Source: Hydrococcus rivularis NIES-593 (GTDB taxonomy: Bacteria > Cyanobacteriota > Cyanobacteriia > Cyanobacteriales > Microcystaceae). From it: a stretch of DNA of 64,000 nucleotides. Position 1 is the stretch's first letter; every line of letters starts with the position of its first letter. Shown here piece by piece: positions 50,127-59,166 of the stretch. The stretch lies in the NCBI RefSeq assembly GCF_001904635.1, contig NZ_MRCB01000026.1, positions 1-64,000 on the forward strand, in the 5' to 3' direction. The notes under the pieces were generated by a model. It was given only the letters and a program-made list of their open reading frames with translations, had not been told where the DNA came from and searched no databases. A program made the position numbers and the translations under genes.

Positions 50127-51159
50127 GGAAATTCGCGATCGCGTCTGTAGAATTGACAATTTTCATTCCTGCCTTGGCAAAGCGTTGGAAGGCAGCATCG
50201 GCTTGTTCGGTAAAATCGATAACACCGGGAACGACGACGGGAGAGGTACAATCTTCTAGTAAGTAAACTTTTTTAGCTAAGCTGGGATCTCGTGCCAAAA
50301 TTTCCGTTAATAGGTCGTCAATCGTCCAAGCGACGCAGTGACTTTTGGCTTGCCCTGCAATGATAATTGCCTCATATTCGAGTAATTTTTCTAGAAAACG
50401 AGTATTTTTGAACGCGATCGCGACTCCGTCTGCACCTTCTAAAACTTCTGGACGCAATACCGAATAATTTTCTGTTAGAGGATTGTTTCCTTTGATCTCA
50501 AAAATAGTTTGACTGTTTCTAGCAATATTGTGGAAAAAAATGGCTTCTTCTACAGCAGAAACTAAGGCGTGACCGATCCCTCCTAACATGGAGTGGTAGG
50601 GCCATACCGTCAGGAGATATTTTCCGGCTTCGCTCAGTTTTTTAACATAATGCAGTGCGTGTTTTTGTAATGCTGAATAATTGCTGCCAGCAAGACTAGC
50701 CGCGACAGCTGGATTAACTTTCCACAAGCCTTTTTCAAGATCTTCAAGACTTATCGTCGTTGCCGCCGGAATCGGATGTTCTCCCGCATCATTTATCCAA
50801 AAAATCGGATGGAAAATTTGCATAGCGGTATGCGTATCCATCGTCGCAGCAATTTCTGTAATGACATCTAGATTGTGATAAATAAACTCGCACAAACGGA
50901 TATTATCCTCAACTGCACCTTTACCGGATTGTCCGCCGACAAATAGTTCGAATTCCGGAATACAAAAGGTATTTTGTACGTCAATTAATACTAAACCAAC
51001 ACGAGTTTTATCCTCCGCAGCCGGTTTAATATTGTGCTGTTTTGCCCAAGCTTTAGCTTCTGCTGCCCTCTGTTGGTAGGGAACTCGCCAAACTTCACCG
51101 ACTTTTTTGCGATCGAAAAAAGAAGGGATGGGGAGTTGAGTGGGAGTTGTAGTCGTCAT
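50119..51159 (-). CDS. Isochorismatase-like cysteine hydrolase
   Basis: The isochorismatase/nicotinamidase fold is visible: Asp in [10 protein letters not shown], and the catalytic Cys in [19 protein letters not shown] long N-terminal extension (about 55 residues) precedes the core, and an insertion separates the Asp from the rest of the triad. The family includes nicotinamidases, isochorismatases and ureidoacrylate amidases; the substrate here is unknown. The frame is open upstream to 51258, but ATG 51159 is the plausible start. The 3' end overlaps queA by eight bases. Confidence 0.75.
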
Positions 51160-54548: not shown

Positions 54549-55562
54549 TTAATTGTCAGTAGAATGAGAAATTAAGCAGGTTTTTAGTTGCTCGTGGATG
54601 AGCGTAGTATCTAAATTCCGACCGATCAAAACCAGCTGATTTTTAGGTTGCGTTTGCCATTCATCTGCTTCGAGTTCGTAACGATTGCCGCTAAGCTGAA
54701 AAATATGTCTCAATTTGCTTTCTTCAAACCAAAGAATTCCCTTAGCTCGAAAGACAGTATAGGGCATTTGCTCGACAATAAAGTTCTCGAATTTCTGTAA
54801 ATCAAAAGGGCGATCGCTCTCAAAAGAAACAGCCACAAATCCATCATTTTCTATATGATAACCAGAAGATTCGCGATCGCGCCGAAATTTTCTAATTTGA
54901 CTGATATAAATATCTTCTTGAGTTAATCCTAATCCCAAAAGTAATGTTAGCGGGACTTTCCCATATTGACCATGAAAAATCCTCACCCCTTCTTTATTGC
55001 CTTGAATAAAATCTTCTAACTCTTTGATTTTTCTCTCATCAACTCTATCTATTTTATTGAGAATTATAATGTCGCCATATTTAATCTGACGAAGAGCGAT
55101 ATCACTATCAAAATGTTCGGGAGTAAAATTTTCTGAATCGACTAACGTAATAATCGAATCCAGATGGGTTAAAAACTTTAACTCAGTAGCTATAAAAGTC
55201 AAAATAATCGGAAAAGGATCGGCTAATCCTGTTGTTTCAATAATCAAATAATCGATTTTATCTTCTCTTTCTAAAATCTGATAAACTGCCTCGATTAAAC
55301 TATCATTAATCGTACAGCAGATACAACCATTGCTTAACTCAAACATATCTTCTTCCGTTGAAACTAGAAGTTGGGAATCGATATTGATATCGCCAAATTC
55401 ATTGACTAAAACAGCCACTTTCAACCCTTGTCGATTCTCTAGAATATGATTGAGCAAAGTTGTTTTGCCACTGCCCAAGAAACCAGTGATAATAGTTACT
55501 GGCATTCCTCTTTTGGGAAGAGTAGGCAGAGAATCGGAAAGAGAAATATTGGGACAATTCAT
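54549..55562 (-). CDS. COG0523 (CobW/ZNG-like) GTP-binding metallochaperone
   Basis: This G3E-family GTPase has Walker A GFLGSGKTTLL (about 27-37), the metal-binding GCICC (C80, C82, C83), ETTGLADP and NKID for GTP, and a C-terminal CobW_C domain ending in LVLIGRNLD. No histidine-rich loop is present. Members deliver metals, and a zinc-linked subset is often encoded with copies of Zn enzymes such as FolE and HisI. Here it is the third gene after folE and hisI (38 bp after hisI), pointing to a zinc-allocation role (inference). Confidence 0.92.
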   Translation of the reverse strand: MNCPNISLSDSLPTLPKRGMPVTIITGFLGSGKTTLLNHILENRQGLKVAVLVNEFGDINIDSQLLVSTEEDMFELSNGCICCTINDSLIEAVYQILEREDKIDYLIIETTGLADPFPIILTFIATELKFLTHLDSIITLVDSENFTPEHFDSDIALRQIKYGDIIILNKIDRVDERKIKELEDFIQGNKEGVRIFHGQYGKVPLTLLLGLGLTQEDIYISQIRKFRRDRESSGYHIENDGFVAVSFESDRPFDLQKFENFIVEQMPYTVFRAKGILWFEESKLRHIFQLSGNRYELEADEWQTQPKNQLVLIGRNLDTTLIHEQLKTCLISHSTDN

Positions 55563-55600
55563 ATTATTAGATTTGAAAAAGTTAGCTCATAAAAATTAAC

Positions 55601-55957
55601 CTAGATCTGATGAAAATAATTGAGAGGAACAAAATTAAAAAAACAACTTCTTTTACCCGTATGACAGGCAATATCTCCAACCTGTTCGATTTTTAATAAC
55701 AAGGTATCAGCATCGCAATCATAATACAATTCTTTTACTTTCTGAATATGTCCGGAAGTTGCCCCTTTGTGCCATAATTCTTGTCGAGAGCGGCTCCAAT
55801 AATATACTTCTCCCGTCATCAAAGTTTGCTGAATTGATTCTCTATTCATCCATGCCATCATCAAGATAGCGCCATCCCGATAATCTTGAGCAATGGCAGG
55901 AATTAATCCTTGCTCGTTAAATTTTAATTGTTCAATCCAAAGAAAATCTTGATTCAT
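55601..55957 (-). CDS. hisI: Phosphoribosyl-AMP cyclohydrolase, stand-alone HisI
   Basis: The 118-residue enzyme opens the purine ring of PR-AMP in histidine synthesis. In many cyanobacteria HisI is fused to HisE, so this monofunctional copy may be a paralogue. Metal residues are intact: D80, D82, D84 for Mg and C81, C98, C105 for Zn; [16 protein letters not shown] is the substrate loop. CCGGAG precedes ATG 55957. It is in a row with folE upstream (76 bp) and the COG0523 gene downstream (38 bp), suggesting a zinc-responsive operon. Confidence 0.93.
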
Positions 55958-56033
55958 GTTTCTATCTCCGGAAAAGTAGAGATGAGAAATAACTCACCTC
56001 TACTTATGGCACGCTGTTTAACTTGGAATTTAG

Positions 56034-56690
56034 TTAATGAAAGGTAGGATTATGACAAATTAAACTCATAAATTCTTGACGAGTTTTCGCATCTTCTGCA
56101 AAGACTCCCCTCACGGCACTGGTAGAAGTCCAAGAACCGGGTTTTTGTACTCCCCGCATCACCATACACATATGAGTTGCTTCGATAACAACCGCCACGC
56201 CTTTTGGTTTTAATAATCCTTGTATGGCATCGGCAATTTGTGCGGTTAATCTTTCTTGCACTTGCAAGCGTCTGGCATACATTTCACAAATGCGCGCGAT
56301 TTTTGAGAGTCCCATTACTTTTCCATCAGGAATATAGGCGACGTGAGCGCGGCCTAAAATGGGTAAAATATGATGTTCGCAGGAACTGAAAAGATCGATA
56401 TCTCGCACCAATACCATCTCGTCGGTATCTTCGTGAAAAACTGCCCCGTTGAGCAATTCATCGAGAGATTGATGATACCCTGACGTCAAGAATTGTAAGG
56501 CTTTAACAACTCGTTTGGGAGTATCTTTTAACCCTTCGCGATCTGGATCTTCTCCTAATCCTAACAGTAAAGTCCGTACCGCCTGGATCATATCCTCTTG
56601 TGAAACAAGAGATTGATGTTCGGTAGTCAGATTGGGGAAGGAACTTTTAGTCGATTTGATTGCAGTAGGTTCGGACTTAGATAAGGTCAT
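56034..56690 (-). CDS. folE: GTP cyclohydrolase I
   Basis: The type I enzyme converts GTP to dihydroneopterin triphosphate. It retains the zinc ligands C104, H107 (SSCEHH) and C175 (HMCMVMRG) and substrate residues in [22 protein letters not shown]. At 218 residues it is slightly long at the N-terminus. Being zinc-dependent, it does not replace a zinc enzyme the way FolE2 would. It is the first gene of folE-hisI-cobW, with the palindromic operator at 56796-56820 about 106 bp upstream. Confidence 0.95.
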
Positions 56691-56770
56691 AGATGAATCT
56701 CAACAACAAAAAATCAGGTAGGAATACGGAGCAATAAGTGCTTAGAGAGCTAATTTTTGACAAGTGGTTT

Positions 56771-56789
56771 GTACCGACGCGATCGGTAC
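56771..56789. other. 7-bp inverted repeat in the folE leader region
   Basis: GTACCGA-CGCGA-TCGGTAC, a small hairpin between the operator and folE. It is possibly part of the folE leader RNA. No regulator can be named. Confidence 0.35.
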
Positions 56790-56795
56790 TCCCTT

Positions 56796-56820
56796 TATAA
56801 TAATGATAATCATTATTATA
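56796..56820 (-). promoter_or_regulatory. Zur/Fur-type operator upstream of folE-hisI-cobW
   Basis: A perfect 12-1-12 palindrome. The inner TGATAATCATTATTA (56804-56818) fits the cyanobacterial Zur consensus I know (TGATAATnATTATCA) at 14 of 15 positions, and 56799-56817 matches the classical 19-bp Fur box at 17 of 19. It lies where the folE promoter should be, since TATAAT and TATAAAG hexamers occur in and beside it on the coding strand. The zinc-enzyme context favours Zur. Confidence 0.8.
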
Positions 56821-57082
56821 CAGTGCGACACAAGATTATCTGGGACGGGCGATTGGGAATGTTAGCTGGCTTAAGCCTACTGACTAATCGGGCAGGGCGA
56901 ATCCCGTTCGAGGATCGCGGATGTACAAACCCAAGGTAAGCGATTCCATCGCTGTATCCCATACTGGCGTGAAGCGATCGCAATCGTCTGCCCAATAGTC
57001 AAAGGTAATCAGACACTGAACCCCAGAACCTACGCGTTATTTTAAATTGAGATAACTCGGTAATAATCGTTTCTTGATTTTC

Positions 57083-57133
57083 TGTGGAAAACTTAGCGGC
57101 AATCTGTGGAAAATTGCACTTATCTGTGGAAAA
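57083..57133 (-). promoter_or_regulatory. Cluster of three DnaA boxes
   Basis: TTTTCCACA (seen as TGTGGAAAA on the plus strand) occurs at 57083-57091, 57105-57113 and 57125-57133, all in one orientation and 20-22 bases apart, about two helical turns. A fourth, inverted copy is at 57277-57285 inside the CDF gene. The flanking 57030-57080 is A+T-rich. TTTTCCACA is the DnaA-box form used in cyanobacteria. Confidence 0.65.
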
Positions 57134-57146
57134 AACGATCGCGCAA

Positions 57147-58070
57147 TTAAGAGTCTCCTGACTCAAAAGTAATGCGATCGTGTTGATAATCGGGAGGTTC
57201 TACATGGATGATTACTCGTACGGGACTGAATTGTTCTGCCAAGCGAATTTCTACTTCTTCTGTAATTTTATGGGCGTTTTCCACATCGGTTGCCTCTACA
57301 ACTAAGTGCATTTCTATAAATATTTGTCGTCCCAGCAATCCCCTAGAGGCTATATCATGGCAATTGATAACGCCGGGAACCTCCATGACGATTTGATGGA
57401 TTGCTTCGGGCGCGATCGCCATTTCATCTACCAACCAAGGCACGTTGGCCTTTAATACCGTCCAACCGCTGTAAAATACCAACAAAGCAACGGGGAAAGA
57501 CAAAATTACGTCTAGCCATTGCAGTTGCGGTAAATTTAACACCCGTCCTTGCCAAACGCCAACCAATCCAGCCATAACCGCAATCGTCACCCAGATGTCG
57601 CTCATGGTGTGGTAAGCATCGGCAATCAAAATCGGACTTCCAACTTTCCTGCCAACTTTCCGTTCGTAAAAAGCCACAAAAATATTCACCCCCAACACGA
57701 CGATCAGGAGCGATAATTCTGCGCCAGCAATGCGAACGGGACTTCCTCCCTTCAAAATTCGTTCGGCTGCGTTTTTCAGGATTTCAAAACAAGCAATTCC
57801 TAAAAAAGCAGCGATTCCCAATGCGCCTAGCGCTTCATATTTTTGATGTCCGTAGGGATGATCGCGATCGGGGTGAGGAGAGGACAAGCGACTGGCAATT
57901 AAACCGAGAATGTTATTTGCACTATCGGTGACGCTGTGTAAGGCATCTGCTTGCAAACTCAATGAATTCGCCTGGACTCCTACCACTGCTTTGAGTCCCA
58001 TAACGAAGAGATTAAGAAGCAGGGTAAGAATTAAAACTTTACGAACCTCAGAGCGGTTATCCCTTACCAC
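57147..58070 (-). CDS. Cation diffusion facilitator (CDF) family transporter
   Basis: Six TM helices and a C-terminal cytoplasmic domain (about 215-300) are visible. TM2 has HSVTDSANN and TM5 DAYHTMSDIW, giving the HxxxD metal sites typical of Zn/Fe CDFs. It would export Zn2+, Fe2+ or a similar ion in exchange for protons. The C-terminal dimerisation domain (IFIEMHLVVEATDVENAHKI) is intact. It lies next to, but separated by 456 bp from, the zinc-linked folE group. Confidence 0.9.
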   Translation of the reverse strand: MVRDNRSEVRKVLILTLLLNLFVMGLKAVVGVQANSLSLQADALHSVTDSANNILGLIASRLSSPHPDRDHPYGHQKYEALGALGIAAFLGIACFEILKNAAERILKGGSPVRIAGAELSLLIVVLGVNIFVAFYERKVGRKVGSPILIADAYHTMSDIWVTIAVMAGLVGVWQGRVLNLPQLQWLDVILSFPVALLVFYSGWTVLKANVPWLVDEMAIAPEAIHQIVMEVPGVINCHDIASRGLLGRQIFIEMHLVVEATDVENAHKITEEVEIRLAEQFSPVRVIIHVEPPDYQHDRITFESGDS

Positions 58071-58323
58071 AGAAGCTACTAGATTTAGGCTATCATGTTA
58101 AAATAATTCATAGGTTTGGGCTAATCTACAGCATGCGACCTGGTTTGAGTTTGATAGTAAAAATGGTGCGGTTGAAGGCTAGCTGATTTCTCTAATTATT
58201 CGCTCTCCGCTTGTAGACGACACTTGTTTTTCAAAGGCTTATTATACCACTTTGTCAATGCGTAAGTCCTAATTAAAATTGTTAATGGCGATCGCACTCA
58301 ATTTGTCGCCATCAAGAATTTGA

Positions 58324-59166
58324 ATGTCAAAAGACTTAAAACCGGGAACGCTATATCTAGTCGGAACGCCGATAGGAAATCTGGAAGATATTACCTTTCG
58401 AGCAATAGGAATTTTACAAACAGTAGATTTAATTGCGGCTGAAGATACTCGCCACACGGGAAAATTATTACAACATTTTCAGATTGCTACCCCACAGATT
58501 AGCTATCACGAACACAATAAGCGATCGCGTCAGGAAGAATTATTAGCTCGTCTCCAAAAAGGAGAGACAATTGCTCTAGTAACGGATGCGGGAATGCCAG
58601 CAATTTCCGATCCGGGTTACGAATTGGTGAAAGCTTGCATCGATGCTGGCATCTCGGTCATTCCCATTCCAGGAGTCACGGCAGCGGTGACTGCGCTAGC
58701 GGCATCGGGTTTGCCAACCGATCGCTTTGTTTTTGAAGGGTTTTTACCTATAAAAGAAAAAGAAAGGCGCGATCGCCTTAATTTTTTGAAACATGAAACT
58801 CGCACCTTGATTTTATACGAAGCCCCCCATCGCTTGCTTGAAACTCTCAGGGATTTAGCCAGCGTTTTAGGGGAAAATAGACAAATCGTATTGGCAAGAG
58901 AATTAACCAAAGTACATGAAGAATTTTGGCGAGGGACAATTCGAGATGCGATCGCACTCTATACGACTAACCGCGAACCCAAAGGAGAATTTACCCTTGT
59001 CGTCGCAGGGACTCAAACGCAAGAAAATCTCATTTTATCGGAAGAGGAACTCAAAACCGAACTGCGACACCTAATCGAGCAAGGAATGACGCGATCGCAA
59101 GCTAGTCGTCAGTTAGCCCAACTCACTAATATTCCCCGCCGTCAGATTTATGATTTAAAAATCTAA
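58324..59166 (+). CDS. rsmI: 16S rRNA 2'-O-ribose C1402 methyltransferase RsmI
   Basis: This SAM-dependent tetrapyrrole-methylase-fold enzyme shows LYLVGTPIGNLEDITFRA at the start, AAEDTRHTGKLL, SYHEHNKRSRQEEL and DAGMPAISDPGYELV, and the C-terminal YEAPHRLLETL. It methylates C1402 in 16S rRNA helix 44. At 280 residues it is typical. ATG 58324; a plsC-like gene follows 14 bp later, so they probably share a transcript. Confidence 0.95.
   Translation: MSKDLKPGTLYLVGTPIGNLEDITFRAIGILQTVDLIAAEDTRHTGKLLQHFQIATPQISYHEHNKRSRQEELLARLQKGETIALVTDAGMPAISDPGYELVKACIDAGISVIPIPGVTAAVTALAASGLPTDRFVFEGFLPIKEKERRDRLNFLKHETRTLILYEAPHRLLETLRDLASVLGENRQIVLARELTKVHEEFWRGTIRDAIALYTTNREPKGEFTLVVAGTQTQENLILSEEELKTELRHLIEQGMTRSQASRQLAQLTNIPRRQIYDLKI

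Follow-up and report, generated by a model that had tools for sequence, protein, structure and literature searches.

The window analysed here, the whole stretch of 64,000 nt from Hydrococcus rivularis NIES-593, corresponds to contig 19 of a 5.14 Mb genome assembled in 67 contigs. Near its end, three co-oriented copies of the 9-mer TTTTCCACA (hereafter the triad, or class I array) lie between the 3' end of a CDF (cation efflux) transporter gene and folE, with an inverted fourth copy inside the CDF gene. The features of the locus are:

56034..56690, minus strand: folE (GTP cyclohydrolase I), the next gene past the array here, not conserved as a neighbour
57061..57082, minus strand: A-rich 3' flank (GAAAATCAAGAAACGATTATT), with partial conservation across class I that is clear in a subset of loci only
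57070..57135, minus strand: entire class I array as delimited by sequence profile R1 (57.4 bits, E 3.5e-15, with the near-identical relative G002 included in the model)
57083..57091, minus strand: DnaA box 3 of the class I array, exact match, 22 bp from box 2
57092..57104, minus strand: last spacer of the class I array, whose weak-box resemblance is a class-wide result (24 arrays) and not this copy's own
57105..57113, minus strand: DnaA box 2 of the class I array, exact match, 20 bp from box 1
57125..57133, minus strand: DnaA box 1 of the class I array (TTTTCCACA), exact match, 14 nt past the CDF stop codon
57147..58070, minus strand: CDF (cation efflux) transporter gene (PF01545, PF16916), its 3' end adjoining the array
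57277..57285, plus strand: inverted fourth TTTTCCACA, within CDF codons

The motif is known as the DnaA box of cyanobacteria, supported by footprints at a Cyanothece oriC (PMC4674748). An exact-match search reproduced everything the initial annotation had recorded about its placement, namely the triad positions, the spacings of 22 and 20 bp, the inverted copy at 57277 and a single further copy near 50529. The five copies in the 64,000-nt window (minus strand at 50529, 57083, 57105 and 57125; plus strand at 57277) compare with a chance expectation of 0.83 (sd 0.93), and at least five were reached in 0/100 dinucleotide-preserving shuffles; with a backwards control pattern for the triad matching in 0/98 genomes, the clustering at the triad exceeds chance. 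A genome-wide motif count, also proposed in the initial annotation, gave 43 copies of the 9-mer and 36 of its reversed control in the 5.14 Mb. Since single boxes are hardly enriched across the genome, clustering is the unusual feature, and two further close clusters were found, at C1:341054-341092 and C21:60027-60077. The earlier estimate of one such 9-mer per 130 kb agrees with the observed genome rate (1 per 120 kb) but lies below the shuffle rate of the window (about 1 per 77 kb). On the deposited contigs 13 copies are forward and 30 reverse, a bias that contig orientation may explain.

The inverted fourth copy lies in the CDF codons D-V-E-N and is present in G002 too, but an exact box anywhere in the gene was found in only 2/80 CDF reading frames. 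Being coding and rare, it was ruled out as a member of the array and is probably incidental. The A+T-rich stretch described beside the boxes is present but mild, with fractions of 0.60-0.64 in 50-bp blocks over 57000-57149. A scan of 56650-57400 found no terminator at the triad and one promoter-like match, within shuffle expectation. An RNA element at the triad found no support, as 56000-58400 contains no Rfam match to E 0.1. Farther along the minus strand (54549-56818), folE, hisI-like and COG0523/CobW-like genes stand in a row; with the Zur/Fur-like palindrome TGATAATCATTATTA (56804-56818) upstream of folE, which has one mismatch to what we take to be the Zur/Fur consensus, they look like a zinc- or iron-responsive operon.

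The genome encodes a DnaA with N-terminal, ATPase and DNA-binding domains, its gene lying on C66 and dnaN on a separate contig, C1. About 100 bp upstream of dnaN are three boxes (C1:341054-341092; orientations -, +, +), the last two 2 nt apart, an arrangement like that described for the Cyanothece 51142 oriC, with paired boxes 2 nt apart beside dnaN (PMC4674748). The triad shares the box TTTTCCACA with this type of origin but differs from it in standing away from dnaN, in having no 2-nt pair and in its 20-22 bp spacing. Because boxes of the published type immediately precede dnaN on C1, the triad was rejected as the ordinary oriC, and the suggestion that it could be a replication origin found no support in that sense. 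Its description as far from dnaA and dnaN holds within the limits of a 67-contig assembly; in the single-contig G002 the same triad begins at 4,094,685, 0.89 Mb from dnaN, with dnaN-linked boxes starting at 2,495, 2,514 and 2,525 and a second kind of array (class II, described below) at 374,255. The location away from oriC is accordingly clear, and the distance between class I arrays and dnaN is not constant, being 117 kb in G005, 0.89 Mb in G002 and 2.9 Mb in G081 (the latter two assuming circular single contigs). The GC skew of G002 displayed no significant two-arc or V pattern (permutation p 0.27; 40 stretches of 20 kb, sampling 16% of the contig), consistent with the irregular skews reported for many cyanobacteria (PMC7198777).

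To describe the conservation of the triad, 98 genomes were searched for three exact co-oriented boxes separated by gaps of 5-30 nt (start-to-start 14-39). This returned 43 matches in 39/98 genomes, the present one included, against 0/98 for the backwards control. Start-to-start spacing was 20-23 bp for the first interval and 21-22 bp for the second in 40/40 fetched arrays, though 14-39 was allowed. Alignment A1 comprised 38/40 fetched loci, with G088 (a tandem repeat) and G054 (wider gaps) excluded; its 27 box columns are invariant because the search pattern demanded exact boxes, and the informative positions are those at or above 70% in the remaining columns, for instance the nucleotide following each of boxes 1 and 2 and the one preceding box 3. 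A sequence-only profile, R1, was built from these 38 triads of the same genomes. Across the phylum an exact triad occurs in only 44/386 genomes, and some of these probably sit at origins, given a spacing near 30/21 and a position at the very start of the record. Similar clusters at many other loci, named in the initial annotation as evidence against its reading, were not seen; genomes carry few clusters, and conserved ones. Separately, two genomes from a single family outside this order contain dense arrays of many TTTTCCACA (G125 C13:44875-45028; G133 C9:30985-31137), with additional triads elsewhere in both.

Mechanically called reading frames were clustered for 41 arrays, the window's own and the 40 fetched; two of the 43 triad matches fall outside this count, one between dnaA and dnaN by coordinates (G068 C1) and one at a DUF2811 locus (G076 C93). 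The genes c0, CDF or guaA were found within 2.2 kb of 24/41 arrays, the class I loci, with 6/41 near DUF2811 and 11/41 elsewhere. The recurring block consists of the small conserved gene c0, CDF, the array and guaA, and farther out c3, c4 and genes named by eye from their translations as glycosidase-like and rbfA-like. The array adjoins CDF in 14/24 class I loci, and no CDF lies beside it in the other 10/24; guaA, instead of folE, occupies the other side in 10/24 and is convergent on the array. In the lineage of the window folE is the next gene, downstream in the same direction. Among 80 named CDF loci, 12 have two or more exact boxes in the same orientation, 19-24 bp from each other and no more than 600 bp from the stop codon, including Symplocastrum, Trichocoleus, Argonema and Spirulina records. 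The nearest frames converge in 14 of the 24 class I loci, run in the same direction in 8, including the window, and diverge in 2, so a promoter role does not unite these arrays. Control of CDF or folE, a further suggestion of the initial annotation, is unlikely as a general role because the triad lies 3' of CDF and its neighbours vary between class I loci.

Within the arrays, the last spacer resembles a degenerate DnaA box more closely than shuffles do (z -7.2 for class I, 24 arrays, and -13.3 for class II, 50 arrays), values that the relatedness of the sequences and the use of mononucleotide shuffles make too strong. For the first spacer of class I a weak box was unsupported, the fit being worse than in shuffles (z +2.3). 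Over the 50 bp past box 3 the A+T fraction averages 0.69 in the 24 class I loci, compared with 0.55-0.60 in the flanks, and conservation of the 3' flank is clear in a subset of these loci only. Repeats resembling the DnaA-trio, counted after the last box with what we take to be its consensus and with mononucleotide shuffles as the comparison, are not in excess (class I 1.71 against 1.64; class II 1.22 against 1.12).

The weaker R1 matches include arrays that precede DUF2811, in many cases with pth as the following gene; these made up 44/61 examined loci, the 61 having been picked from the profile matches. In the present genome this class II array (C21:60027-60077) has two exact boxes and ATTTCCACA, spaced 21/21, and lies 308-350 bp upstream of DUF2811 with pth next; across genomes its position is fairly constant, approximately 220-600 bp upstream of DUF2811. 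In 50 class II arrays, imperfect boxes (no more than two mismatches) recur on the upstream side of the penultimate exact box; their offsets are roughly multiples of 11 bp, mostly -22/-21 and -44/-43, less often -33 (13/50) and near -56/-55 (14 in all). DUF2811 itself, a 75-aa protein of unknown function encoded here at L160:2378-2605 (G000 C21), is present in 65/79 dnaA-bearing genomes at the 45% identity filter used (plus G005, below it at 40% identity) and in 7/19 dnaA-less genomes, in one of the seven with stop codons. A functional link between DUF2811 and DnaA is possible from this distribution, in which lineage effects are included. No paper naming DUF2811 was found in open PubMed Central.

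Both kinds of array are associated with dnaA. The DnaA ATPase domain is absent (E 1e-30) from 19/98 genomes, which belong to 13 genera and several of which measure 3.5-4.8 Mb; the DNA-binding domain is also absent from 18/19, the exception being G066. In that genome (C97:4576-4674) a truncated remnant of the DNA-binding domain, with an in-frame stop, lies beside dnaN as a trace of dnaA loss. Exact triads occur in 37/79 dnaA-bearing and 2/19 dnaA-lacking genomes (Fisher p 0.0037), or 31/45 and 2/13 when counted by genus and dnaA status (p 0.001); because the genomes are related, these and the other p and z values overstate independence. The profile R1, built from triads of the genomes on which it was tested, had its best match at E < 1e-4 in 76/79 dnaA-bearing and 3/19 dnaA-less genomes among the matches listed (p 9e-13), the former becoming 72/79, again among the matches listed, without G056, G083, G092 and G093, where the best match is beside dnaN. 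Upstream of DUF2811, at least two exact boxes were found in 50/65 dnaA-bearing genomes vs 0/7 without dnaA, and at least one in 58/65 vs 3/7 (p 0.0087). Within 400 bp of the CDF stop codon, at least two exact boxes are present in 13/55 dnaA-bearing and 0/12 dnaA-less genomes, a count based on 67/69 genomes, with G056 and G078 omitted for a contig edge and a partial gene.

The association has exceptions on both sides. An exact triad is missing from 42/79 dnaA-bearing genomes, and 7/65 have no exact box upstream of DUF2811, including all five genomes of genus g12. Three dnaA-less genomes (G064, G070 and G088) retain R1 matches, among the matches listed; the match in G088 is a plain tandem repeat, and G070 is 95% complete and has a dnaA-bearing congener. 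The match in G064, a dnaA-less single contig, has two exact boxes separated by 42 bp and a 3' flank resembling that of class I (C1:3801050-3801117; L237), and may reflect recent dnaA loss, an assembly gap or another binder. At the usual distance from DUF2811, dnaA-less G027 and G031 keep one exact class II box with degraded neighbours.

Exact boxes, helical spacing, a neighbourhood without a constant downstream gene and rarity in the absence of dnaA together point to a DnaA-binding control site. We therefore lean towards reading the triad as a conserved extra-origin site that would titrate DnaA or control its activity, and the class II array upstream of DUF2811-pth as a putative second site of this kind in the genome. 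The boxes, their spacing, the conserved gene neighbourhood and the association with dnaA are direct observations. We infer binding of the arrays by DnaA from the identity of the motif with the published cyanobacterial box and from the rarity of the arrays in dnaA-less genomes; with less confidence we propose that DnaA would oligomerise on them and that they would serve to titrate it or control its activity. Three strong co-oriented boxes about two helical turns apart would place DnaA molecules on one face of the helix, where, together with the weak box in the last spacer, they could assemble a short DnaA oligomer. Such an oligomer might keep DnaA from oriC or change its ATP/ADP state, and DnaA withheld or altered in this way would help set DnaA availability and the timing of initiation. 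The initial annotation, partly supported overall, had offered an origin, DnaA titration or gene control; titration is the best supported kind of reading, because the array is kept in one neighbourhood, lies between mostly convergent frames (14/24) and is rare without dnaA.

Comparable sites are described in other bacteria. In Bacillus subtilis, DnaA-box clusters (DBCs) lie outside oriC, and removal of six leads to early initiation, while the same review also describes Bacillus clusters as having no significant role in initiation control (PMC5295017). The class I array is analogous in being a DnaA-box cluster outside oriC; unlike the DBCs, it keeps a fixed set of three co-oriented boxes in the same gene neighbourhood in different families of one order. 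The E. coli locus datA is reported as a high-affinity non-coding DnaA-box locus away from oriC (PMC5295017, PMC4585315), a description that the present array would share, with three boxes in place of the five of datA. DARS1 and DARS2 have a core of three DnaA boxes, and DARS1 also requires a flank past the last box (PMC4585315); the three-box core and the 3' flank conserved in a subset of class I loci are reminiscent of them, whereas the boxes here are all co-oriented and about 21 bp apart. The conserved distance to oriC reported for E. coli strains has no counterpart in class I, with the qualification that our comparison spans genera and the E. coli study is within-species. For this reason the array was not filed as datA or DARS, and a corresponding activity would be putative, by analogy.

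Transcription control is an unlikely alternative, in which DnaA at the array would regulate a neighbour (CDF or folE here, guaA in relatives, DUF2811-pth for class II). Regulation of genes by DnaA at non-origin boxes is on record (PMC7198777), class II keeps its fairly constant position upstream of DUF2811, and folE in the window lies downstream of the array in the same direction. For class I, however, the array stays while its neighbours change and 14/24 copies lie between convergent frames; in the window, the single promoter-like match is within shuffle expectation and folE has its own Zur/Fur-like palindrome.

We regard as improbable a role as a secondary or back-up origin of replication, with DnaA opening the DNA at the array. 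The boxes with their A+T-richer 3' flank (0.69) and the many graded boxes of class II are what such a site might contain, and several cyanobacteria use multiple origins, but the reported multi-origin species are DnaA-independent (PMC7198777). Ordinary-oriC-type boxes were moreover located at dnaN, DnaA-trio-like repeats are not in excess after the last box, and the G002 skew, without significant pattern (p 0.27) over the 16% of the contig sampled, lends no support. About as improbable is a neutral array, or one bound by a protein other than DnaA, whose absence without dnaA would reflect genome reduction or shared ancestry: several dnaA-less genomes are indeed small and the genomes are phylogenetically related, yet those without dnaA span 13 genera and include several of 3.5-4.8 Mb, the repeated motif is the exact box of the genome's own dnaN-linked origin, and a 20-23 bp spacing across families is unexpected of neutral sequence. 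The control-site reading of the triad remains the one we prefer.

Extra-origin control of DnaA is known from E. coli, Bacillus and Streptomyces, and most cyanobacteria are polyploid. Titles and abstracts in open PubMed Central yielded no report of conserved extra-origin DnaA-box arrays in cyanobacteria. A broader reading, which we offer tentatively and hold to be rather less than probable, is that many cyanobacteria of the order possess two dedicated extra-origin DnaA-control loci, one at c0/CDF/guaA and one at DUF2811, with a shared geometry of co-oriented strong boxes two helical turns apart and a weak box in the last gap. Such loci would keep DnaA selected for regulation even where initiation is DnaA-free, would decay after dnaA loss and would be separate from datA and DARS of E. 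coli. According to Ohbayashi et al. (2020), it is still unclear what DnaA does in DnaA-oriC-independent cyanobacteria (PMC7198777), and two conserved dnaA-linked arrays outside oriC are concrete sites that make this question directly testable. If they are control sites, extra-origin control of DnaA would be extended to the cyanobacteria, mostly polyploid organisms.
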